A program made the translations under genes and the position numbers. Shown here one piece after another: positions 7,580 through 36,213 of a stretch of 49,976 nt of DNA. Origin of the DNA: Bacillota bacterium (GTDB lineage Bacteria; Bacillota; Sulfobacillia; JAJYWN01; JAJZPE01); the NCBI GenBank assembly GCA_036504675.1, contig DASXUT010000190.1, positions 1 to 49,976 on the forward strand, read 5' to 3'. Under the pieces are notes generated by a model, which was not told where the DNA came from, made no database searches, and saw only the letters and a list, made by a program, of their open reading frames with translations. The stretch's first letter is position 1. Each line of letters starts with the position of its first letter.

Positions 7580-7756
7580 GCAAAGCCCGCCAAGGTCGAT
7601 CTGATGTAAACGACGACGTCCCAGCTTGGTGCAGTCCAAATGGGCGGTCGTCCTGGGGAGGGATGTCCTCCAGAGAGTCCTCGTGACCAGACTATCCGGC
7701 GCCATTTCCGTGACCCTCGAAAGCTAGCAGTTCCCCCCGTGGGGAGGAGGAAAGCC

Positions 7757-8830
7757 ATGGAAATCTTCTCATACATGGAGAGGTACGCCTATGAGCAGTT
7801 GGTTTTTTGCTATGACAAGACCTCCGGGCTGAAGGCCATCATCTGCATCCATAACACGACTCTCGGGCCGGCCCTTGGCGGTTGCCGCTTCTGGACCTAC
7901 CCCAACGAGGACGCGGCCATTCTCGATGCCCTCCGCCTGGCCCGGGGCATGACCTACAAGTCCGCCGTGGCCGGGCTCAATCTCGGCGGCGGCAAGTCGG
8001 TGATCATCGGCAACCCGCGAGCCGACAAATCGGAGACCCTCTTCCGGGCCTTCGGCCGCTACCTGGAGAGCCTGCAGGGGCGGTACATCACCGCCGAGGA
8101 CGTCGGCACGACGGTCGCCGACATGGACATCATCCACCAGGAGACCGAATTTGTGGCCGGGGTGTCCACCAGGACCCAGGGCGGCTCCTCGGGCGACCCC
8201 TCGCCGGCCACGGCCTTCGGCTGCTGGCGGGGGATGAAGGCCTGCGCCCGCGAGGTCTGGGGGGACGAGGGCCTGTCCGGCAAGACCGTCTCCGTCCAGG
8301 GCGTCGGCAACGTCGGCTACCACCTGGCCCGCCACCTCCACGACGAGGGGGCCAAGTTGATCGTCGCCGATATTAATGACCAAAACCTCGAGCGAGCTGT
8401 CAAGGAGTTTGGAGCTACGGCCGTGAATACCGAGGAGATTTATGGGGTCAAGGCCGACATCTTCGCCCCGTGCGCCCTGGGAGCCATCCTCAACGACGAG
8501 ACCATCCCGCAGCTGAAGGTGCAGATCATCGCCGGGTCGGCCAACAACCAGCTCAAGGAGGAGCGGAACGGGGACGAACTGGAGAGCCGCAGCATCCTTT
8601 ATGCGCCCGACTACGTCATCAACGCCGGCGGGGTGATCAACGTCGCCGATGAGTTGCACGGGTACAACCGCGACCGGGCAATGAGGAAAGTGGCCGGGGT
8701 CTATGACAACGTCGCCAAGGTCATCAAGATGGCCAAGGACCGGCACATCCCAACCTACAAGGCGGCCGACCTGGTGGCCGAGGAGCGGATCAGCAAGATC
8801 GGGGAACTCCACAAGAAGTTTATCCCGTGA
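7757..8830 (+). CDS. Leucine dehydrogenase
   Basis: A 357-residue NAD-dependent branched-chain amino-acid dehydrogenase, very like characterised Bacillus leucine dehydrogenases. Motifs: [27 protein letters not shown] (active-site Lys), [17 protein letters not shown], and a Rossmann segment [15 protein letters not shown] near residue 185. ATG at 7757 follows GGGGAGGAGG. The open frame upstream to 7640 is not conserved-looking and precedes the Shine-Dalgarno. The 177-base gap before it may hold a second promoter for the vor half of the cluster. GTGA overlap with the ATPase gene downstream indicates translational coupling. The product feeds 2-oxoisocaproate and related acids to VorDBAC. Confidence 0.93.
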
Positions 8831-27488: not shown

Positions 27489-27542
27489 GCCCGGCGGCCC
27501 GCCGGCGAAGGTCCGGCGGAAGCCCGCCGGGCCTGCTTTTTT
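27489..27542 (+). terminator. Rho-independent terminator after sigF
   Basis: GCCCGGCGG near 27489 pairs with CCGCCGGGC near 27532, enclosing a second stem GCCGG/CCGGC. TGCTTTTTT follows. Confidence 0.85.
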
Positions 27543-27586: not shown

Positions 27587-27616
27587 GCATAACGGCTTTA
27601 CTGCCAGAGCATAATA
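27587..27616 (+). promoter_or_regulatory. Candidate sigma-G promoter of the spoVA operon
   Basis: GCATA at 27587-27591 and CATAATA at 27610-27616, spacing 18, fit the forespore sigma-G consensus (GnATR, CATnnTA). spoVA is sigma-G-dependent in B. subtilis. The first gene starts 32 bases downstream. Confidence 0.6.
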
Positions 27617-27647: not shown

Positions 27648-27836
27648 ATGACCGTCCAACCCACCCCCAGGACCTCCCGGCTGATGACCGCCCTGGTCAT
27701 CGTCAGCCTGATCCTCGTCGCCCTCCTTTGGGCGGCCGCCTACATCCGATCGGAGCCGAAGGTCCCGCGGCGGACCACCATCATCAGGCTCGACCGAAGC
27801 GTTTCCCATCGCGGCCTGGTCCGGCGGTTCGATTGA
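27648..27836 (+). CDS. Small single-span membrane protein, first gene of spoVA operon
   Basis: A 62-residue protein: short polar N-terminus, one helix (LMTALVIVSLILVALLWAAAY, about residues 12-32), then a basic tail (KVPRRTTIIRLDRSVSHRG). ATG 27648 has GGAGGG eight bases upstream; ATG 27641 in another frame gives an unlikely His/Pro/Arg-rich product. It stands directly behind the candidate sigma-G promoter, where spoVAA/spoVAB are found in Bacillus. No family recognised. Confidence 0.65.
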   Translation: MTVQPTPRTSRLMTALVIVSLILVALLWAAAYIRSEPKVPRRTTIIRLDRSVSHRGLVRRFD

Positions 27837-27882: not shown

Positions 27883-28221
27883 GTGACTGTGGTGAAGGTA
27901 TTGGAGCTCGTCGGGGAGTCCAAGAACAGCTGGCAGGAAGCGGCTTCGAACGCGGTGACCGAGGCCGCTCGGACGGTCGACCACATCACCGGGGTCGAGG
28001 TCATCAACTGGACCGCGGCTGTCAGCGGGCAGGAGATTAAGGATTACAAGGCCAACGTCAAGGTCGCCTTCGTGGTCGACGGGAACCGCCAGGGTCAGGG
28101 ACAGAGTCAGGGACAGAGCCAGAGCCAGGGTCAGGGACAGAGTCAGGGCCAGGGACAGAGCCAGAGCCAGGGTCAGGGCCAGGGTCAGGGCCACAGCCCG
28201 AGCCAGAGATCGCCTTTCTGA
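27883..28221 (+). CDS. Dodecin-family protein with Gln/Gly/Ser-repeat tail
   Basis: A 112-residue protein. Residues 1-68 are a dodecin fold (VVKVLELVGESKNSWQEAAS, EAARTVDHITGVEV, KANVKVAFVVD), the small beta-wrapped helix that assembles into hollow dodecamers. Where flavin-binding dodecins have a stacking Trp, this one has Glu (GVEV), so flavin binding is doubtful. Residues 70-103 are a low-complexity tail built of GQ and SQ pairs, unknown in standard dodecins. GTG start at 27883 after GGGAGG. It lies between the small membrane gene and spoVAC, so forespore expression is likely. Confidence 0.8.
   Translation: MTVVKVLELVGESKNSWQEAASNAVTEAARTVDHITGVEVINWTAAVSGQEIKDYKANVKVAFVVDGNRQGQGQSQGQSQSQGQGQSQGQGQSQSQGQGQGQGHSPSQRSPF
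28088..28199 (+). repeat. Low-complexity hexamer repeats inside the dodecin tail
   Basis: Repeated CAGGGx and CAGAGx hexamers (CAGGGTCAGGGACAGAGT and variants) encode alternating Gln-Gly and Gln-Ser. Units are near-identical at the DNA level, implying recent slippage or selection on the protein tail. Confidence 0.85.
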
Positions 28222-28245: not shown

Positions 28246-28704
28246 ATGACCACCGCAACGAAGGAACAACAAACCTCTTACACACGCCTGTTGAAGAAGC
28301 ACCGGCCCAACCCGCCGGTGCTCCGCAATGCCCTGGCTGCCTTCATCACCGGTGGGGCCATCAGCGCCATCGGCCAAGTGGTGATGAGCTTCTTCCTCGG
28401 GCGCGGACTGCTGCCGGCGGAGGCGACCGTCTGGACCGCCGGGGCGATGATCTTCCTCGGCTCTCTGCTTACGGCCATCGGGGTCTATGACCTCATCGGG
28501 CGGTGGGGAGGGATGGGGGCGGCTTTGCCCATCACCGGATTCGCCAACGCCGTCGTCTCGCCGGCCATGGACTTCCGGCGGGAAGGATGGGTGCTCGGGC
28601 TGGGGGCCAAGATGTTTGTCATCGCCGGCCCGGTGATCGTCTTCGGCGTCGTCACGTCGGTCGTGGTCGGTTTGGCCCGCATCCTCCTGTGGGGAGTGCG
28701 CTGA
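28246..28704 (+). CDS. spoVAC: Stage V sporulation protein AC
   Basis: A 152-residue membrane protein, part of the SpoVA channel that moves dipicolinic acid into the forespore and out at germination; SpoVAC of B. subtilis behaves as a mechanosensitive channel. About four hydrophobic helices (NALAAFITGGAISAIGQ, VWTAGAMIFLGSLLTAIG) and the conserved GMGAALPITGFANAVVSPAM. ATG 28246 lacks a clear ribosome-binding site. It is in frame with, and 24 bases after, the dodecin stop, so reinitiation is possible. Confidence 0.95.
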   Translation: MTTATKEQQTSYTRLLKKHRPNPPVLRNALAAFITGGAISAIGQVVMSFFLGRGLLPAEATVWTAGAMIFLGSLLTAIGVYDLIGRWGGMGAALPITGFANAVVSPAMDFRREGWVLGLGAKMFVIAGPVIVFGVVTSVVVGLARILLWGVR

Positions 28705-28731
28705 CGCGAAAATTCGGGGGGGTGACGGAAG

Positions 28732-29757
28732 ACGGCTCCGAACCGGATCGGCCAGGGGACTCTGAGATTCCGGCGGCGCCCGGTGATCGTCGCCACGGCG
28801 GCCATCGCCGGGCCCGATGAGGGGAAGGGCCCTTTGGGCCCGGAGTTCGACGAGATCAAGAAAGACCGGCTTCTCGGGCTGGGGAGTTGGGAGAAGGCCG
28901 AGTCGCAGATGCTTCGGGAGGCCATCATCATGGCCATGTCCCGCGGCTCCTCCGACGAATGCCAGATCGACCTGCTGTTCGCCGGCGACCTCTTGAACCA
29001 GATCATCTCGGCCGACTTCTGCCTCCGCGAGTTCAGCACTCCTTTCATCGGCCTCTACGGGGCCTGCTCGACGATGGCGGAAAGCCTGATCATGGCGGCC
29101 ATGGCCGTCGATGGCGGTTACGCCGACCGGGCCGTCGCCGCGACGTCCAGCCACTTCGACACGGCCGAGCGGCAGTTCCGCTACCCCATCGAGCACGGCA
29201 GTCAGCGGCATCCGACGACCCAGTGGACGGCCACCGGGGCCGGGGCGGTGGTGGTCGCCGCCTCCGGCCGGGGACCGGTGGTCGCCGCGGCGACGGTCGG
29301 CGTGGTCATCGACTACAAGCAGAAGAACATCAACGACATGGGCGGGGCGATGGCTCCCGCCGCCGCCGACACCATCATCAGGCACCTCCGGGCCACCGGG
29401 CGGCGGCCCGAGGATTACGACCTCATCGCCACCGGGGACCTGGCCGCCGTGGGCCATCCCGTGGCGGCGGAGCTGATCGAGCAGGCCGGCTTCCGCCTGG
29501 GCGACCGATTCAAGGACTGCGGCCTGATGCTCTATGACCGCAAGAAGCAGGACGTCCACGCCGGCGGCAGCGGGTGCGCCTGTTCGGCCCTGGTCTATTG
29601 CGGGCACATCCATAAGCGTCTCGAGCGAGGGGAAGCCAAGCGAGTCCTGCTGGTCGGGACGGGGGCGCTCTTCAGCCCGACTTCCACCCAGCAGGGAGAG
29701 TCCATCCCGAGCATCGCCCATGCGGTGGAGATCGAGGCGGGAGGCGAGGGAGGATGA
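28732..29757 (+). CDS. spoVAD: Stage V sporulation protein AD (non-canonical start)
   Basis: SpoVAD is a thiolase-fold protein that binds dipicolinic acid. Family segments: FAGDLLNQIISADFCLRE, YGACSTMAESLIMA, SSHFDTAERQFRYPIEHG, GGAMAPAAADTI. The first canonical start is GTG 28783, which has no ribosome-binding site and loses the conserved N-terminal strand. Residues encoded upstream (RIGQGTLRFRRRPVIVATA) still align with the family, and the frame is open back to a stop at 28723. ACG 28732 lies nine bases after a run of seven G (28716-28722) and gives 341 residues, the normal length. CTG 28762 or a sequencing error are alternatives. Confidence 0.9.
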   Translation, partial: TAPNRIGQGTLRFRRRPVIVATAAIAGPDEGKGPLGPEFDEIKKDRLLGLGSWEKAESQMLREAIIMAMSRGSSDECQIDLLFAGDLLNQIISADFCLREFSTPFIGLYGACSTMAESLIMAAMAVDGGYADRAVAATSSHFDTAERQFRYPIEHGSQRHPTTQWTATGAGAVVVAASGRGPVVAAATVGVVIDYKQKNINDMGGAMAPAAADTIIRHLRATGRRPEDYDLIATGDLAAVGHPVAAELIEQAGFRLGDRFKDCGLMLYDRKKQDVHAGGSGCACSALVYCGHIHKRLERGEAKRVLLVGTGALFSPTSTQQGESIPSIAHAVEIEAGGEGG

Positions 29758-30113
29758 TGAAGGTAGTGATGGCCTTCGTCATCGGTGGCGGTCTCTGCGT
29801 CCTCGCTCAATTGGTCCTCGACCTCGGGCGGGTCACGCCCGCCCACGTCCTGGTCGGAGCGGTGGTCATCGGGGCCATTCTGAGCGGGTTCGGGCTCTAC
29901 AGCCCGCTGGTCCACCTGGGCGGGGCCGGCGCCACCGTACCCCTCCTCGGTTTCGGGCATTCTCTGGTTCAGGGGGTCCTCCGGGATTTCACCCTCCGCG
30001 GCTGGCCGGGCCTCCTGACCGGCGGCTTTTCCGCCGCCGCGGTAGGTCTGTCGACGGTAATCATCCTGGCCACCCTGGCCGCCCTGGTGACCCGGCCGAA
30101 GCGGAAGTACTAG
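29754..30113 (+). CDS. spoVAE: Stage V sporulation protein AE (AEB, short membrane form)
   Basis: A 119-residue membrane protein of the SpoVA channel, paralogous in fold to SpoVAC: VVMAFVIGGGLCVLAQLVLD, then LGGAGATVPLLGFGHSLVQG. ATG at 29754 overlaps the spoVAD stop. About four hydrophobic helices. The position after spoVAD is standard. Confidence 0.93.
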   Translation: MMKVVMAFVIGGGLCVLAQLVLDLGRVTPAHVLVGAVVIGAILSGFGLYSPLVHLGGAGATVPLLGFGHSLVQGVLRDFTLRGWPGLLTGGFSAAAVGLSTVIILATLAALVTRPKRKY

Positions 30114-30161: not shown

Positions 30162-30551
30162 ATGATTGAACTCGACCTATTCGGATTGCTCCTCACCGCG
30201 GTCGTCGTCGGCCCACGCCAGGCGCACCTGGTCGTCCTGGCGTCCTTGCTTCAGGAGGCCCTCCGCGTCCTGGCCGCCGTGGCTTTGCGCCACGACCTCC
30301 TGGCGGTGATGGCCGGCGGGGCCTTCGGGGCGACGGCGGCCGAAGGTCTCCCGCCCCTCGTCCTCGGGCTGGCCGGGCCGGCCCTGCTGGCCCTGGTGGC
30401 CCTGAACCTGGTCCACGGGCGGGAACGGCTGGCCGAGATCATCACCCCCTGGCGCGAGAGTGGTTATCCCTTCGCCGCGGTGGCCCTCCGACTGGCCGTC
30501 CTGACGGCGGCCATCGTCGTCTCCATCAGCCTCGGGGGTGGCGGACCCTGA
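30162..30551 (+). CDS. Unknown membrane protein inside the spoVA operon
   Basis: A 129-residue, Leu/Ala-rich protein with about four hydrophobic segments (LFGLLLTAVVVGPRQ, LPPLVLGLAGPALLALVALN, LAVLTAAIVVSISLG). It lies between the two SpoVAE-type genes, where B. subtilis has none. ATG 30162, weak ribosome-binding site (GGCGAAGG). I do not recognise a family. Hydrophobicity and operon position suggest a forespore-membrane partner of the channel, which is inference. Confidence 0.6.
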   Translation: MIELDLFGLLLTAVVVGPRQAHLVVLASLLQEALRVLAAVALRHDLLAVMAGGAFGATAAEGLPPLVLGLAGPALLALVALNLVHGRERLAEIITPWRESGYPFAAVALRLAVLTAAIVVSISLGGGGP

Positions 30552-30580: not shown

Positions 30581-31207
30581 ATGGAACGGACGGACAAGCA
30601 GAAAGCGGGCAAGAAACGGGTCATCCTTGTCACCGACGGCGACCGGGTGGCCGAGAGGGTCATCGAGATGGCCGCCAAGAAGCTCGGGCTACGGACCATC
30701 TCGCGGTCCGGGGGCAACCCGACCCCGATCTCCGGCAAGGAGATCGTCGACCTGATCATGGAGGCGCCCAAGGACCCGGTCCTGGTGATGGTGGACGATC
30801 GTGGGAAGTCGGAGAAGTGGAAGGGCGAGCGCGCCCTGGAGCGCATCGCCAAGGACCCCAAGATCGAAGTCCTCGGAGTGGTCGCCATCGCCTCCCACAC
30901 CCATGACGCCAACGGGAGCCACGTGGATGTGTCGGTGACCGCCAAAGGGGAATTGGTCGACGGGCCGGTCAATAAGGAGGGCGTGCCCGATGAGAAGCAT
31001 GGGCGACTCAAAGGCGACACCGTCGACGTCCTCGAGGACCTGACCATCCCGGTCATCGTCGGCGAGGGCGACCCGGGGAAGCAGGACGGCGCCGACTGGC
31101 TCAGTAAGGGGGCCCCGCTGACGATGAAGGCCATCGAGGAGATCCTCCGACGGAACGACATCGAGGCCGAGGGCCTGTCGGGCCGGGTGGATCCGGGGGA
31201 ACATTGA
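30581..31207 (+). CDS. spoVAEA: Stage V sporulation protein AEA
   Basis: A 208-residue soluble protein of the SpoVAE N-terminal type. Start KKRVILVTDGDRVAERVIE and the segments LRTISRSGGNPTPISGKEIV and VVAIASHTHDANGSHVDVSV are typical, ending in TIPVIVGEGDPGKQDGAD. In Bacillus this soluble protein accompanies the SpoVA channel in the forespore. ATG 30581; ATGA-type overlap with the next gene at its end couples the activase genes to spoVA. Confidence 0.92.
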   Translation: MERTDKQKAGKKRVILVTDGDRVAERVIEMAAKKLGLRTISRSGGNPTPISGKEIVDLIMEAPKDPVLVMVDDRGKSEKWKGERALERIAKDPKIEVLGVVAIASHTHDANGSHVDVSVTAKGELVDGPVNKEGVPDEKHGRLKGDTVDVLEDLTIPVIVGEGDPGKQDGADWLSKGAPLTMKAIEEILRRNDIEAEGLSGRVDPGEH

Positions 31208-32256
31208 TGGTGACGGACGTCGCCAGGCGGAGACCGATCCGCGTCGGCGTTCCAAGGGCCCTCCTCTACCACGAATACGCCGCCCTCTGGACGGCTTTCC
31301 TGGCCGGCCTCGGGCTGGAGGTGGTCGTCTCCGACCCGACGTCGAAGTCCATCGTCGACGCCGGGGTGAAGGAGGCGGTCGACGAGGCCTGCCTGCCGGT
31401 GAAGGTCTTCTACGGCCACGTCATCGACCTCCGCCGCAAGGGAGTCGATTACATCTTCCTGCCGCGGGTGGTCGCGGTCGAGCGGCGGGCCTACTCATGC
31501 CCGAAGCTCCTCGGGCTGCCCGACATGATCAGGCACACGGTCAAGCCATTGCCGCCGCTCATCGACGAGACCGTGAACGTGGCCAGGAAACCGCGGCAGA
31601 TCTATGGCGCGCTGTGGCGGGCGACGGCGCCCTTCACCCGCAACCCGTGGACGTTGGCGAGGGCCTGGCGCCGGGCGCTGCGGGCCCACCGGGACTACCG
31701 GGAGCGGCTGTTGGCCGGTTGGATCCCGGGCGGGGGGAAGGCGGGGGACCGGGGGGGGACGGAGAGCCCGGGCGTCCACGACGGAGACCCCTCGGACCGC
31801 CTGACTATCGGCGTCCTCGGCCATCCCTACAACGTCTACGATCGCCACATCAGCCTCGACCTGCTCGGGAGGCTCGAACGGTGGGGGGTCAGGGTGGTCA
31901 CGGCCGATTCCGTCCCGACCGAGGTGGCCAGGGCCGAGACGGACCGGTTGCCGAAGGACCTCTTCTGGTCGACGGGCCGGAAGATCCTCGGCTCGGGGCT
32001 GCACTACCTCAACAGCCGCTCGGTGGACGGGCTGATCCATCTGGTCTCCTTCGGCTGCGGGCCGGACTCGCTGGTCGGGGAGTTGGTCCAGCGGAAGGCG
32101 GCCCGCCTGGGGACGGTGCCTTTCCTCCTGCTCACCCTGGACGAGCATTCCGGCGAGGCCGGACTGGTGACCCGGATCGAGGCCTTCATGGACATGGTCA
32201 GGCAGCAGCGGAGGGCCGGCGGGGGGCCGGTCGGGGAGGGTGGGAACGTCGGATGA
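31204..32256 (+). CDS. Acyl-CoA dehydratase activase-related protein (DUF2229/HgdB-like), copy 1
   Basis: A 350-residue protein of the 2-hydroxyacyl-CoA dehydratase component family fused in other organisms to activases. Starts IRVGVPRALLYHEYAALWTA. Candidate Fe-S cysteines are in VDEACLPVKVFYGH, AYSCPKLLGLPDM and SFGCGPDSLV. The C-terminal LTLDEHSGEAGLVTRIEAF is shared with the next gene, so the two are paralogues. ATG overlaps the spoVAEA stop. A Gly-rich insert (GGGKAGDRGGTESPG) near residue 178 looks like a linker. No catalytic dehydratase subunits are nearby. Confidence 0.8.
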   Translation: MMVTDVARRRPIRVGVPRALLYHEYAALWTAFLAGLGLEVVVSDPTSKSIVDAGVKEAVDEACLPVKVFYGHVIDLRRKGVDYIFLPRVVAVERRAYSCPKLLGLPDMIRHTVKPLPPLIDETVNVARKPRQIYGALWRATAPFTRNPWTLARAWRRALRAHRDYRERLLAGWIPGGGKAGDRGGTESPGVHDGDPSDRLTIGVLGHPYNVYDRHISLDLLGRLERWGVRVVTADSVPTEVARAETDRLPKDLFWSTGRKILGSGLHYLNSRSVDGLIHLVSFGCGPDSLVGELVQRKAARLGTVPFLLLTLDEHSGEAGLVTRIEAFMDMVRQQRRAGGGPVGEGGNVG

Positions 32257-33383
32257 AGGTCACCTTTCCCCACATGGGCACTCTCTGGGTGGCCGCCAAG
32301 GCCATCCTCGAGGACCTCGACCTGGAGGTCGTCGTCCCGCCCAGGCCGACCACCCGGACGATGAACCTCGGGGTCAAGCACTCACCCGAATTCGCCTGCC
32401 TGCCGCTGAAGCTGTGCGTCGGCAACTACCTCGAAGCCTTTGAGCGCGGGGCCGACGCCATCGTCATGGCCGGCGGCATCGGTCCCTGCCGGTTCGGCTA
32501 CTACGCCCAGGTCGAGCGGGAGATCCTCAACGACCTCGGGTACTCGTACCGGATGATCGTCCTCGAGCCGCCCAAGGGGCACCTCTCGGACCTTGTCAAC
32601 GAGATCAAGGGCTTTACCGGCCAGCGTTCGCTGCGCCGGATCTATCAGGCCGCCCTGTTCGGCTATCGGAAGCTGGGGGCACTCGACGCCATCGAGCGTC
32701 GGACGAACCAAGTCCGGGTGGACGAGGCGGCCCGCGGGGGGACCGGCCACGCCGTACAGAAGGCGACGGCCCTCATCGACCGGGCGGCGTCGATGGACGA
32801 TCTGAAAACGGCCCTCGCCCGAGGCCTTGAGGTCCTCGATCAGGTCCCGCGCAAGGAATCCGGCGACCCGCTCAAGATCGGCCTCGTCGGCGAGGTTTAC
32901 ATGCTCCTCGAACCCTACGTCAACCTCGATATCGAGCGACAGTTGGGGGAGATGGGCGTCCTCGTCGAGCGTCACGTCTACCTGACCGACTGGGTCCGCA
33001 GCCATCTGACGGCCGACTTCCTCCGGTTCGATCACGAGCGGGAGATGCGTCAGGCCGCCAAGCCCTACCTCGGGCACTGGGTCGGCGGGCACGGGGTGGA
33101 GACCATCGGGAATTCCGTCCTCTACGCCCGCCGGGGCTTCGACGGGGTCATTCAGGTGGCCCCGCTGACCTGCATGCCCGAGATCGTCGCCCGCAGCCTG
33201 CTGCCGGTGGTCAGCCAGGACCACGGGATCCCCTTCCTGTCGCTATTCCTCGACGAGCACGCCGGTGAGGCCGGCCTCCGCACCCGCCTGGAGGCCTTCG
33301 TCGACCTCCTCGAACGCCGGCGGGAGCAACGCCGGCGGCGGGCTTCAACCCTTTCTTTGGAGGTGGCCGGACATTCGCGGTAA
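32253..33383 (+). CDS. Acyl-CoA dehydratase activase-related protein (HgdB-like), copy 2
   Basis: A 376-residue relative of the preceding gene. Candidate iron-sulfur cysteines: FACLPLKLCVGNYLE, GGIGPCRFGYYAQVE, PLTCMPEIVARSLLP. Shared C-terminal LFLDEHAGEAGLRTRLEAF. Members of this family bind a [4Fe-4S] cluster and receive an electron from an ATP-driven activase such as the next gene's product. ATG 32253 overlaps the upstream stop; the long frame upstream to 31497 is a shadow of the previous gene. Confidence 0.8.
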   Translation: MKVTFPHMGTLWVAAKAILEDLDLEVVVPPRPTTRTMNLGVKHSPEFACLPLKLCVGNYLEAFERGADAIVMAGGIGPCRFGYYAQVEREILNDLGYSYRMIVLEPPKGHLSDLVNEIKGFTGQRSLRRIYQAALFGYRKLGALDAIERRTNQVRVDEAARGGTGHAVQKATALIDRAASMDDLKTALARGLEVLDQVPRKESGDPLKIGLVGEVYMLLEPYVNLDIERQLGEMGVLVERHVYLTDWVRSHLTADFLRFDHEREMRQAAKPYLGHWVGGHGVETIGNSVLYARRGFDGVIQVAPLTCMPEIVARSLLPVVSQDHGIPFLSLFLDEHAGEAGLRTRLEAFVDLLERRREQRRRRASTLSLEVAGHSR

Positions 33384-34386
33384 GCCAGCCTACTTGGGAG
33401 TCGACGTCGGTTCGGTGAGCACGAACCTGGTCCTCCTGGACGAGGACGAGAAGGTCCTCGAGGCCCTTTACCTGAAGACCGGAGGGCAGCCGGTGAAGGC
33501 CGTCCAGGAAGGTCTGGCCCGGTTGAGTGAGGAGGCCGCCGGGGAGGTCCGAGTGGTCGGCGTCGGGGCGACCGGCAGTGGGCGCCAACTGACGGGGGTG
33601 GTGGTCGGGGCGGACATCGTCAAGAACGAGATCACCGCCCATGCCGTGGCCGCCCTGCAGCGTTTCCCGGGCGTGCGGACGATCCTCGAGATCGGCGGGC
33701 AGGATTCCAAGATCATCATCATCCGCCAGGGGGTGGTGGTCGACTTCGCCATGAACACCGTCTGCGCCGCCGGGACCGGCTCCTTCCTCGACCGGCAGGC
33801 GGCCAGGCTCGGGGTGGCCATCGAGGACTTCGGCGCCCTGGCCCTCCAGTCCGAGCACCCGGTGCGGATCGCCGGGCGCTGCGCCGTCTTCGCCGAGTCG
33901 GACATGGTCCACAAGCAGCAGATGGGCCACACCACCGAGGACATCACCCGCGGACTGTGCCAGGCTCTGGTTCGCAACTTCCTGAACAACGTGGCCAAGG
34001 GCAAGGAGATCCAGCCGCCGGTGGCCTTCCAGGGCGGGGTGGCGGCCAACGTCGGCATGCGTCAAGCTTTCGAGGAAGCGCTGGCGATGGAGGTGAACGT
34101 GCCGACGTACTTCGGGGTCATGGGGGCCATCGGAGCGGCCCTCCTGGCCAAGGAGGAGATGGCCAGGCGACCTCGACAGACGTGCTTCCGTGGCTTCGAG
34201 ATGAGCCGGACGGACTTCCGCACCACCAGCTTCGAATGCGACGGCTGTCCAAACCACTGCGAAGTCATCGAGATCTACTTGAACGCCATCCTGGCCGCGC
34301 GTTGGGGCGGTCGATGCGACCGCTGGGATCAGCTCGAGCGAAGCCACTTGGTCGCCGGTGGAAAACAGCTATTGACGTCACTCTGA
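33373..34386 (+). CDS. BadF/HgdC-type ATPase activase (ATT start)
   Basis: A 337-residue ASKHA-fold activase that couples ATP hydrolysis to low-potential electron injection. ATPase motifs YLGVDVGSVSTNLVLLDED and GVGATGSGRQL; the family cluster-ligand region NTVCAAGTGSFLDRQA and GRCAVFAESDMVHKQQ; then FQGGVAANVGMRQAF. An extra C-terminal cysteine group CDGCPNHCEV is present. No ATG/GTG/TTG lies between the ribosome-binding site and the fold. GGAGGTGG (33359-33366) is six bases from ATT 33373, giving MRGKPAYLGVDVGS. TTG 33397 lacks a ribosome-binding site and trims the strand. Overlaps the upstream gene by 11 bases. Confidence 0.88.
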   Translation: MRGKPAYLGVDVGSVSTNLVLLDEDEKVLEALYLKTGGQPVKAVQEGLARLSEEAAGEVRVVGVGATGSGRQLTGVVVGADIVKNEITAHAVAALQRFPGVRTILEIGGQDSKIIIIRQGVVVDFAMNTVCAAGTGSFLDRQAARLGVAIEDFGALALQSEHPVRIAGRCAVFAESDMVHKQQMGHTTEDITRGLCQALVRNFLNNVAKGKEIQPPVAFQGGVAANVGMRQAFEEALAMEVNVPTYFGVMGAIGAALLAKEEMARRPRQTCFRGFEMSRTDFRTTSFECDGCPNHCEVIEIYLNAILAARWGGRCDRWDQLERSHLVAGGKQLLTSL

Positions 34387-34406: not shown

Positions 34407-34510
34407 AAGGCTGAGTGGGACAAGTCGGATTGCTTCGGCGCGGTCGCGACCCTTGCGACGACGGCTCAGCGAATGACTTGACCGGTCGGTTTCGGCCGGT
34501 TTTTCATTTT
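34407..34510 (+). ncRNA. Structured leader with terminator upstream of lysA (attenuator or riboswitch candidate)
   Basis: About 100 bases between the promoter and lysA. GCTGAG (34410-34415) pairs with CTCAGC (34465-34470) around an inner hairpin region (GGTCGCGACC, 34442-34451). CAAGTC (34421-34426) can also pair with GACTTG (34475-34480). This is followed by the terminator ACCGGTCG-GTTT-CGGCCGGT at 34481-34500 and TTTTCATTTT. The layout suits transcription attenuation. It does not show the length or conserved bases of the lysine riboswitch or a T-box. Confidence 0.5.
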
Positions 34511-34537: not shown

Positions 34538-36013
34538 TTGAGGAAGACCGAGGTTCTGGCCAAGAAGCGGATCGGTACGTCCCCCGAGGACGACCGGCCG
34601 CCCAGTCGACGGAACGGACCCGCTGACGTCTTTCTGCTGCCCGGCCAGACGGTCGGGGAGAACGGGCACCTTCATCTCGGCGGTTGTGACGCGGTCGAAC
34701 TGGCCCGCAAGTACGGGACCCCGCTGTATGTCATGGATGAGGCCGTCATCAGGGAGCGCTGCCGCGAGTATACCTCCGCCTGCCGACGCCACTATCCCGA
34801 GGATCCGGGTATCCTTCCGGCCTATGCCAGCAAAGCCTTCTTGAACATGACCATGGCCCGGATCGCCGCCCAGGAAGGCCTCGGGCTTGACGTCGTTTCC
34901 GGGGGCGAGCTGCACACGGCCGTCGAGGCCGGTTTTCCGACCGATCGGATCGTCTTCCACGGCAACAACAAGACCCCGGCCGAGCTGAAGCTCGGGATCG
35001 AGGTCCAAGTGGGCCGCTTCATCGTCGACAACCTTGAGGAACTCGAGCTCCTCGAAAGCCTGGCGGCCGGGAGCCGGGGCGCGGTTAAGCCCAAGGTGCT
35101 CCTGCGGGTGACCCCCGGGGTCCAGGCCCACACCCACGATTATGTCAACACCGGCATCGAGGACTCCAAGTTCGGGTTCACCCTCCGCGGCGAGCAGGCC
35201 CTCCGGGCGGCCGCCCGGGCCGCGTCCTCGGCGAACCTGGTCCTGACCGGATTCGCCGCCCACATCGGCTCGCAGATCCTCGAGACTGAGCCGATGGGCA
35301 TGGTCGGACGGGTGATGGTCGAATTCGCCGCCGAGGTTCGGCGGAGGATCGGCTTTGTCGCCAGCGAACTCGACCTGGGAGGTGGCCTCGGGGTTCGTTA
35401 TGTGCCAACCGACGACCCACCGTCGATGGACGACTTCATCGGGATGGCCGCCACCACTGTCCGACAGGAGGCCGAACGACTCGGCCTGCCGTTGCCCGGA
35501 CTGATCTTCGAGGTCGGACGGGCGATGGTCGCCGAGGCCGGCACGACCCTCTACACCGTCGGCGGCGTCAAGCACATCCCCGGTATCCGCACCTACGCCT
35601 CGGTCGACGGGGGCATGACCGACAACCCGAGATTGGCTCTGTATGGGTCGAAGTACATGGCCGTCCTGGCCGACCGGGCGGATCGAGCTCACCATCGGAC
35701 CTACGCCATCGCCGGCCGCAACTGCGAATCCGGGGACATGCTCATCTGGCGGGCCAAGCTGCCGACCCTCAAGGCCGGCGACACGTTGGCCGTCCTGTGC
35801 ACCGGCGCCTACAACTACTCGATGGCCAGCAACTATAACCGGGTCCCCATCCTGCCGGTCGTGCTGGTCCACGACGGCCAGGCCGACCTCATCGTCAAGG
35901 GGCAGACCTGGGCCGATATGACCGCCAACGACCTCCTTCCGGCGCGCTTTGCCGAGCGCAACCTGCGGTTCGCCTCGGCGGGGGCGGCCGGACGTCGGGC
36001 TGGGGCCGATTGA
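34538..36013 (+). CDS. lysA: Diaminopimelate decarboxylase
   Basis: A 491-residue PLP enzyme converting meso-diaminopimelate to L-lysine. PLP lysine in LPAYASKAFLNM, His in GFAAHIGSQI, glycine loop ELDLGGGLGVRY, substrate cysteine in GRNCESGDML, and GAYNYSMASNYNR near the end. The N-terminus carries about 40 residues more than usual (KKRIGTSPEDDRPPSRRNGP), probably disordered. TTG 34538 has GGGGGGAG five bases upstream. Its place after spoVA repeats the Bacillus spoVAF-lysA order; it is separately promoted. Confidence 0.94.
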   Translation: MRKTEVLAKKRIGTSPEDDRPPSRRNGPADVFLLPGQTVGENGHLHLGGCDAVELARKYGTPLYVMDEAVIRERCREYTSACRRHYPEDPGILPAYASKAFLNMTMARIAAQEGLGLDVVSGGELHTAVEAGFPTDRIVFHGNNKTPAELKLGIEVQVGRFIVDNLEELELLESLAAGSRGAVKPKVLLRVTPGVQAHTHDYVNTGIEDSKFGFTLRGEQALRAAARAASSANLVLTGFAAHIGSQILETEPMGMVGRVMVEFAAEVRRRIGFVASELDLGGGLGVRYVPTDDPPSMDDFIGMAATTVRQEAERLGLPLPGLIFEVGRAMVAEAGTTLYTVGGVKHIPGIRTYASVDGGMTDNPRLALYGSKYMAVLADRADRAHHRTYAIAGRNCESGDMLIWRAKLPTLKAGDTLAVLCTGAYNYSMASNYNRVPILPVVLVHDGQADLIVKGQTWADMTANDLLPARFAERNLRFASAGAAGRRAGAD

Positions 36014-36141: not shown

Positions 36142-36213
36142 GGGCGGTTGGCTCAGTGGTAGAGCGCTTGACTCACATTCAAGAGGTCGCTGGTTCGATC
36201 CCAGTACCGCCCA
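36142..36213 (+). tRNA. tRNA-Val (anticodon CAC)
   Basis: A 72-base cloverleaf. The acceptor stem GGGCGGT pairs with ACCGCCC, the D-arm is GCTCAGTGGTAGAGC, the anticodon stem CTTGA/TCAAG holds loop CTCACAT with anticodon CAC, and the T-arm is CTGGTTCGATCCCAG. The CCA end is not encoded (A then CAAG). Single gene, followed by a terminator. Confidence 0.95.

Follow-up and report, generated by a model that had tools for sequence, protein, structure and literature searches.

Why should genes for an ATP-driven, low-potential electron system stand at the end of a spoVA operon? In the window, the whole stretch of 49,976 nucleotides that was analysed, genes A (31207..32256), B (32253..33383) and C (33373..34386) follow spoVAEA on the plus strand. 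An earlier note had described this trio as coupled to spoVAEA, and its coordinates and families for A, B and C were borne out, except that A opens at the ATG at 31207 and not at a TTG at 31204. As an overall explanation, we consider it probable that the trio is a low-potential Fe-S reductase or dehydratase, driven by ATP, which anaerobic endospore formers make in the forespore.

Judged from their sequences, A and B are distant relatives of the HGD-D family that are not filed under it. Both match PF09989 (DUF2229; gathering score 29.4), A with E 8e-50 and 169.9 bits and B with E 1.5e-10 and 41.5 bits, and each has a weak HGD-D tail; the Pfam gathering score of HGD-D (28.4) was reached neither by A (21.2 bits) nor by B (24.9 bits). 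No NCBIfam HAD equivalog model was reported for either protein, and both stay below the NCBIfam cut-offs for HAD, BCR and DCCP. The predicted structures, modelled as single chains with a pLDDT of 88.8 (A) and 92.1 (B), matched HadBC, BzdNO, MbdON and DCCP in Foldseek with a probability of 1.00. The VIA Z score was 15.5 for A against 7yzm_A (272 residues aligned, rmsd 4.3) and 15.8 for B against 3o3n_B (293 aligned, rmsd 4.3). The D-component fold with its two alpha/beta domains spans residues 7-332 of A and 1-355 of B (Z 15-16); in both models, the fold known from the catalytic subunits of 2-hydroxyacyl-CoA dehydratases, benzoyl-CoA reductases and double-cubane proteins is complete.

Exactly three cysteines are invariant in A (C62, C98 and C284, in 77/77 alignment rows) and in B (C49, C79 and C307, in 81/81), so that each protein has the conserved cluster cysteines of a subunit of this superfamily. 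A profile comparison aligned C307 of B with the family's third cysteine, and the remaining two were paired with family cysteines by motif, judged by eye. A double-cubane [8Fe-9S] cluster requires six ligands, and a double-cubane enzyme is ruled out by the three invariant cysteines in each of A and B. The earlier note had seen an activase trio without a dehydratase. It is correct that no annotated HGD-D gene lies nearby, but A and B share that fold themselves, and an activase lacking its enzyme is excluded by the catalytic-subunit fold of the two models. Thus, no component need be missing.

The third protein, C, is a BadF/HgdC-type ATPase (archerase) that matches A and B. It exceeds the cut-offs of TIGR00241 (E 2.3e-54; 184.6 vs 125.4 bits) and of BcrAD_BadFG (PF01869, E 1.3e-49; 169.6 vs 31.5 bits). 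C131 and C170, invariant in 75/75 rows, align with the cysteines of HgdC (1hux) and MbdQ and fall within the motifs CAAGTG and C-VFAE, which C and HgdC have in common; C therefore has the two cysteines of a dimer-bridging [4Fe-4S] cluster, and it additionally carries a C-terminal CxxCxNxC...C. At the position of its relatives' starts C has no ATG, GTG or TTG. Translation likely starts at the ATT at 33373, a few bases past GGAGGTGG, and the two nearest relatives have an ATC at the corresponding position. According to the models, the three proteins together appear to make up a complete low-potential electron machine, powered by ATP and of a known enzyme class.

The trio closes a longer operon on the plus strand. 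A terminator-like hairpin 3' of sigF (27509..27534) fits in position, although the region contains 4 terminator-like sites vs 4.7 expected from shuffles, so that the hairpin is weak evidence by itself. It is followed by a match to a sigma-G-type promoter pattern, GCATA-N18-CATAATA (27587..27616), and the first ORF past this promoter is a putative gene for a small protein of 62 aa with one TM segment (27648..27836). Next come a dodecin with a Gln/Gly/Ser repeat tail (27883..28221; PF07311, E 4.3e-22), spoVAC (28246..28704; PF03862 and TIGR02838, E 3.6e-48, just missing the cut-off of 164 with 162.9 bits), spoVAD (28783..29757; PF07451, E 9.9e-141), whose true start is probably upstream, and spoVAEB (29754..30113; PF03862 and TIGR02839, E 2.5e-36, just missing the cut-off of 131.1 with 124.4 bits). 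An unclassified small membrane protein (30162..30551), with zero Pfam or NCBIfam matches and with relatives in the spoVA/trio loci L006, L103, L146 and L152, precedes spoVAEA (30581..31207; PF14097, E 5.6e-72; NF052647). The genes of the trio had been said to be joined by ATGA-type junctions; this is true of A and B, which overlap by 4 nt, but spoVAEA and A share a TGATG with an overlap of 1 nt, and B and C overlap by 11 nt. Downstream of C are a terminator-like hairpin (34480..34501) and lysA (34556..36013; TIGR01048, E 2.7e-130), the start of which is uncertain, its ORF opening at 34415. A riboswitch or other known RNA controlling lysA or the trio was considered and rejected, since the Rfam scan returned the tRNA at 36142-36213 alone.

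The promoter search used a sigma-G consensus with the gpr promoter as internal control. Only two sites in the whole 3.28-Mb genome match the strict pattern, one before gpr and the other heading the operon with the trio at its end, so that this operon begins as a member of the sigma-G regulon would; 100 shuffles of the window gave 0 matches. In relatives, a strict site directly upstream of A was found at 13/73 loci vs 1/724 control ORFs. The loose pattern was present at 15/73, counting only upstream sites and dropping L014; an earlier count of 16/73 took in that locus and sites extending into A. The search for sigma-70-type promoters in the window gave none before A; the sole site of this type in the vicinity of the trio is situated at the end of C, ahead of lysA. 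The promoter at the operon head is thus of the forespore type, which speaks against a separate vegetative promoter, and the sequence evidence very probably links the trio to the forespore.

The neighbourhood in relatives is not random either. The loci examined were those of the 80 best among 192 confirmed relatives; in 63 of the 73 with sufficient flank, the trio lies just downstream of spoVA genes, usually spoVAF, and it is near spoVA in 55/87 genomes among those with both places listed. The conserved order is sigF-(dodecin)-spoVAC-AD-AEB-AEA-AF-A-B-C. The order and spacing of the trio are preserved in most of the 80 loci, which far exceeds chance; at L080, an apparent gap between A and B and the corresponding one between B and C stem from a second copy of B. 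Among the relatives with the trio is Moorella thermoacetica (locus L075). Some record titles (Actinobacteria, Armatimonadetes and Deltaproteobacteria MAGs) conflict with the placement in the B tree and may be mislabelled. Synteny and promoter together support the earlier proposal that an ATP-driven low-potential electron system is tied to the spoVA operon, and they suggest that the formation or awakening of anaerobic spores includes a redox step not yet described.

The distribution was surveyed in 398 genomes of the phylum, with carriers scored on B alone and unlinked paralogues counted in; the counts are not phylogenetically independent, and the Fisher values ignore relatedness. SpoVAD is present in 269/279 carriers of the trio marker and missing from 10. 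Among genomes without a strong COX1, the marker was found in 268/311 with SpoVAD vs 10/57 without it, and it occurs in 1/30 genomes with a strong COX1 (aerobic oxidase), where the cut between strong and weak was placed post hoc in the broad interval left empty between best E values of 1e-146 and 1e-87. All 29 genomes with only weaker COX1-like matches, this one included, carry the marker (29/29). The trio is not essential to sporulation as such, since it is absent from 43/311 SpoVAD genomes without a strong COX1.

On the reading we prefer, sigma-G RNA polymerase would transcribe the dodecin-spoVA operon in the forespore down to the trio, its three final genes. C would form a homodimer with a bridging [4Fe-4S] cluster and, hydrolysing ATP, send single low-potential electrons into an A-B heterodimer, in which each subunit would hold one [4Fe-4S]-type cluster with an open site on its three cysteines. 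A-B would then perform the chemistry, either a reduction or a reductively started dehydration, and anaerobes might use the product in their spores, either for maturing the core or for restarting low-potential metabolism at germination. More tentatively, anaerobic endospores might possess a dedicated redox starter, deposited in the forespore along with the DPA channel; at germination, it would use the first ATP to drive electrons below ferredoxin potential and thereby re-reduce metal centres or a key metabolite oxidised through dormancy and oxygen.

A version of this explanation that differs in the substrate, with A-B-C re-reducing the oxidised metal centre of another protein in the germinating spore, is possible at about the same tentative level. 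ATP-driven activators are known for corrinoid proteins and methyl-CoM reductase, the trio is almost confined to spore-formers without a strong aerobic oxidase, and C reaches 133 bits against TIGR03286 (methanogenesis marker 15), albeit far below the cut-off of 456; however, the loci read show no metalloprotein partner that is a conserved neighbour of the trio. Less likely is a metabolic passenger: an enzyme of vegetative cells, for example one related to lysine or CoA, that happens to lie between spoVA and lysA and is transcribed in the forespore by mere read-through. The housekeeping gene lysA does lie downstream in 28/63 judgeable loci, and a second, unlinked trio in this genome adjoins an aldehyde ferredoxin oxidoreductase; since unlinked trios exist, the machine is not a spore device only. 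Nevertheless, lysA adjoins the trio less often than spoVA does, so that lysA was rejected as its partner, and even the loose sigma-G-type pattern was found before lysA in 0/29 cases. Strict sites also precede A at L017 and L023, where no spoVA gene visibly adjoins (less than 1 kb and about 7 kb of upstream sequence, respectively), and the presence of the trio follows SpoVAD.

An ordinary 2-hydroxyacyl-CoA dehydratase of amino-acid fermentation would explain the fold, the three-cysteine pattern and an ATPase as in HadBC/HadI, but is very improbable: the only good HGD-D pair of the genome, HadBC-like and with its own BadF ATPase, is on a separate contig (C159), A and B score far under the HAD models, and the inspected neighbours of the trio include no recognisable CoA ligase or transferase. 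Equally improbable is that the trio replaces dipicolinate (DPA) synthase or helps to make DPA, since, although it adjoins the DPA channel genes and 53/279 carriers have no dpaA-like match, such a gene (E 1e-20) was found in 226/279, this genome included (the curated family cut-off is passed by 81/398 genomes, with this one just below), and the last DPA step is an oxidation, not a low-potential reduction.

Spore biology is founded on Bacillus plus a few clostridia, and the trio is easy to overlook because sporulation gene lists start from B. subtilis. With its place in the spoVA operon, its forespore-type promoter and its presence in most anaerobic spore-formers sampled from the phylum, it would fill a gap in the spore programme of anaerobes, and it raises the question whether the maturation or awakening of such spores depends on low-potential chemistry driven by ATP. 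The uncharacterised family DUF2229 would gain a physiological setting, and a redox starter, if true, would add to spore revival a step absent from aerobic model spores. No published link of this enzyme class to spores was found in the literature searched, which lay mostly outside subscription journals; in the accessible parts of PMC3533761 the spoVA genes are named in a gene table and the words activase, dehydratase and BadF are absent (see also PMC3844878, PMC2530871 and PMC7306483).

Among known systems, HgdAB/HgdC and HadBC/HadI (3o3m, 1hux, 4eht) have the same subunit folds, three cysteines per subunit and an ATPase with two cluster cysteines, but A and B are only 12-14% identical to them over aligned residues, the trio is located in a spore operon and C has an extra C-terminal tail with four cysteines. 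Class I benzoyl-CoA reductases (BzdNO 8s02, MbdONPQ 9gai) share the fold of both subunits, and MbdQ is the best PDB match of C by sequence (E 4.9e-53), but A and B are without the double-cubane cysteine set, and no aromatic-degradation genes were recognised beside the trio; six cysteine ligands are given for BzdN in an excerpt of PMC11971306. Like the proposed trio system, DCCP is an enzyme with an unclear physiological role that receives electrons by ATP-driven transfer (PMC11971306). A and B share the fold of DCCP/DCCP-R (6eno, 7yyl) with Z 14.9-15.5, and the C-terminal end of A matches DCCP by sequence (E 1.2e-5); however, DCCP has six cysteines per double cubane, whereas A and B are two different proteins with three each. 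Single-chain BadF-BadF-DUF2229 fusions with a B-like end, about 1450 aa long, combine BadF, DUF2229 and the B-like end and amount to a fused trio. In B. subtilis, spoVAA-AF are followed by lysA and controlled by sigma-G, and this species is not known to have such a trio. The same spoVA genes and a downstream lysA are found here, but the trio intervenes between them.

The genes of the trio, A (31207-32256), B (32253-33383) and C (33373-34386), all on the plus strand, stand in the order spoIIAA-spoIIAB-sigF, dodecin, spoVAC, spoVAD, spoVAEB, small membrane protein, spoVAEA, A, B, C, lysA. The earlier note had read them as two HgdB-like proteins and a BadF/HgdC ATPase, coupled to spoVAEA by ATGA-type junctions. 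The genes and the coupling held, but the junction types had to be corrected: the overlaps are 1 base (spoVAEA/A, TGATG at 31205-31209), 4 bases (A/B, ATGA at 32253-32256) and 11 bases (B/C). The small membrane protein (30162-30551; in the B-containing loci of relatives 7591-7962 on the minus strand of L152, 5901-6293 of L006 and 1-414 of L103) adjoins spoVAEB or sits directly before A. It had no match in Pfam or NCBIfam and is possibly a further SpoVA-associated component. The dodecin (27883-28221) carries a long Gln/Gly/Ser repeat tail of about 43 residues; in many relatives, too, a dodecin is located between sigF and the spoVA genes.

At the conserved start of C the window contains no ATG, GTG or TTG. 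The window has ATT at this place (33373), the two closest relatives, L005 and L006, both have ATC, and in all three GGAGGTG precedes the codon by a few bases. In L005 an in-frame stop lies three codons upstream of the ATC, leaving no ordinary start of C in between. Judging from these sequences, AUU or AUC appears to be the start codon of C; this kind of start is shared by three relatives, each time behind a strong Shine-Dalgarno sequence, and would hold C below the levels of A and B. The start region of spoVAD (28696-28783) likewise lacks ATG, GTG and TTG before the conserved N-terminus; an in-frame ATC is found at 28747, and the explanation is either a sequence error or a further start of the AUH kind.

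The trio belongs to a known enzyme class, and its domains already have names. In Pfam, A is a DUF2229 protein (169.9 bits), B a weaker one (41.5 bits), both with an HGD-D tail below threshold, and C is a BadF-type ATPase; A and B are homologous (hhalign E 4.2e-36). AlphaFold models of A (52 family members as input, pLDDT 88.8) and B (54 members, pLDDT 92.1) were confident and matched (R)-2-hydroxyisocaproyl-CoA dehydratase, benzoyl-CoA reductases and the double-cubane protein in the PDB over nearly the whole chain (Foldseek probability 1.00), with VIA Z values up to 15.8 for B (first unrelated row 10.6) and 15.5 for A (9.7). Three cysteines are invariant in A (77/77 rows) and three in B (81/81), and C contains both bridging-cluster cysteines of the ATPases HgdC and MbdQ. 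A-B-C is therefore a complete electron-activator-plus-enzyme set. C also has an extra C-terminal tail of four cysteines (C289, C292 and C296 in 75/75 rows, C315 in 74/75). Single chains of about 1450 aa exist in which BadF, BadF, DUF2229 and a B-like end are fused, which supports a physical partnership of these parts.

The synteny with spoVA and lysA, which the earlier note had suggested surveying, was examined by scanning one genome per species with B. Among the best 80 of 192 confirmed relatives, seven loci had too little upstream DNA; spoVA genes were located within 6 kb upstream of the trio on the same strand in 63 of the other 73, and lysA downstream in 28 of the 63 loci judgeable for it. 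The nearest spoVA gene at the linked loci was spoVAF (GerA family in Pfam, two examples) in 52, spoVAEB in eight and spoVAEA in three. Among the linked loci are those of Desulfotomaculum-type genera, Moorella, Thermincola, Heliobacterium, Syntrophomonas and Halobacteroidaceae such as Orenia and Natroniella. Two loci of Halobacteroidaceae have a gene for a metal transporter of the ZIP type (L058 6761-7483, by Pfam; L070 6783-7493, by resemblance) between spoVAF and A, perhaps hinting at a metal need. In a sample of 398 genomes of the phylum, 87 genomes had both places among the matches listed; in 55 of them B followed SpoVAD on the same strand at a distance of 2.4-11.3 kb, and in the remaining 32 it was not so placed, in many because B and SpoVAD are on different contigs. 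In the tree of B, unlinked copies were of two kinds, one nested inside the linked group (Desulforamulus), the other a separate clade (100/99 support) including the window genome's own second copy, a diverged A-B-C trio adjoining aldehyde ferredoxin oxidoreductase (L144 on contig C7).

The pattern GHATA-N18-CATAMTA, which we take to be sigma-G-type from the B. subtilis consensus, occurs twice in the genome (3.28 Mb), and its reversed control not at all. One is upstream of the spore protease gene gpr (PF03418), a sigma-F/sigma-G gene in B. subtilis. The other (27587-27616) follows a terminator-like hairpin behind sigF and precedes the dodecin-spoVA-A-B-C run, whose end is marked by a terminator-like hairpin at 34480-34501; the first gene after this promoter is a 62-aa ORF with one TM segment (27648-27836). 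In relatives, strict sites occurred within 300 nt upstream of A at 13 of 73 loci; of the 724 other ORFs with 200 aa or more, a single one, spoVAEA, had such a site. The loose pattern was found before A (16/73) and spoVAC (6/35), and not before B (0/80), spoIIAA (0/32) or lysA (0/29). L017 and L023 have a sigma-G-type site though no spoVA gene was seen beside the trio. Forespore expression of the trio is predicted with high confidence.

B was present in 279 and SpoVAD in 337 of the 398 genomes (both 269, B only 10, SpoVAD only 68, neither 51). Thirty matched haem-copper oxidase strongly, with a best E of about 1e-146 or below; 26 of these contained SpoVAD and one B. Without such a match, B was found in 268/311 genomes with SpoVAD versus 10/57 without, and in all 29 genomes with only weaker oxidase-like matches. 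Thus, where a typical aerobic oxidase is lacking, the trio goes with spore formation. Since 43 SpoVAD genomes lacking a strong match have no B, it is widespread and not universal.

By analogy with the established chemistry of the family, ferredoxin or a flavodoxin would supply C with an electron, which C, hydrolysing ATP, would hand to A-B. There, a substrate bound at the open site of the three-cysteine cluster would be reduced or reductively dehydrated. Gene order, overlap and fusion support A-B as the probable partner of C; the HadBC-like (2-hydroxyacyl-CoA dehydratase) pair of the same genome has its own ATPase and thus does not need C. In the anaerobes' spore we favour either a reduction while the core matures or, at germination, a restart of low-potential metabolism driven by ATP; spores of Desulfotomaculum reducens reportedly reduce metals, a possible lead. 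A DPA synthase is disfavoured, since a dpaA-like gene is present as well in most carriers, among them the window's genome. We found no published report of the trio's sporulation setting in the literature searched, and the available part of a sporulation gene list (PMC3533761) contains spoVA genes and, within that part, neither of the words activase and dehydratase. The trio's biological role there is an interesting candidate.

In the crystal structure of the benzoyl-CoA reductase BzdNO, according to passages of PMC11971306, a double cubane is bound by six cysteines, and where the set comprises three cysteines there is one [4Fe-4S] cluster, carrying water or a hydroxy group as a ligand; both double cubanes are lost in 2-hydroxyacyl-CoA dehydratases. 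Going by three cysteines per subunit, A-B would resemble the dehydratases in its clusters. C resembles HgdC and MbdQ in its two bridging-cluster cysteines, the C-terminal four-cysteine tail being its own addition.
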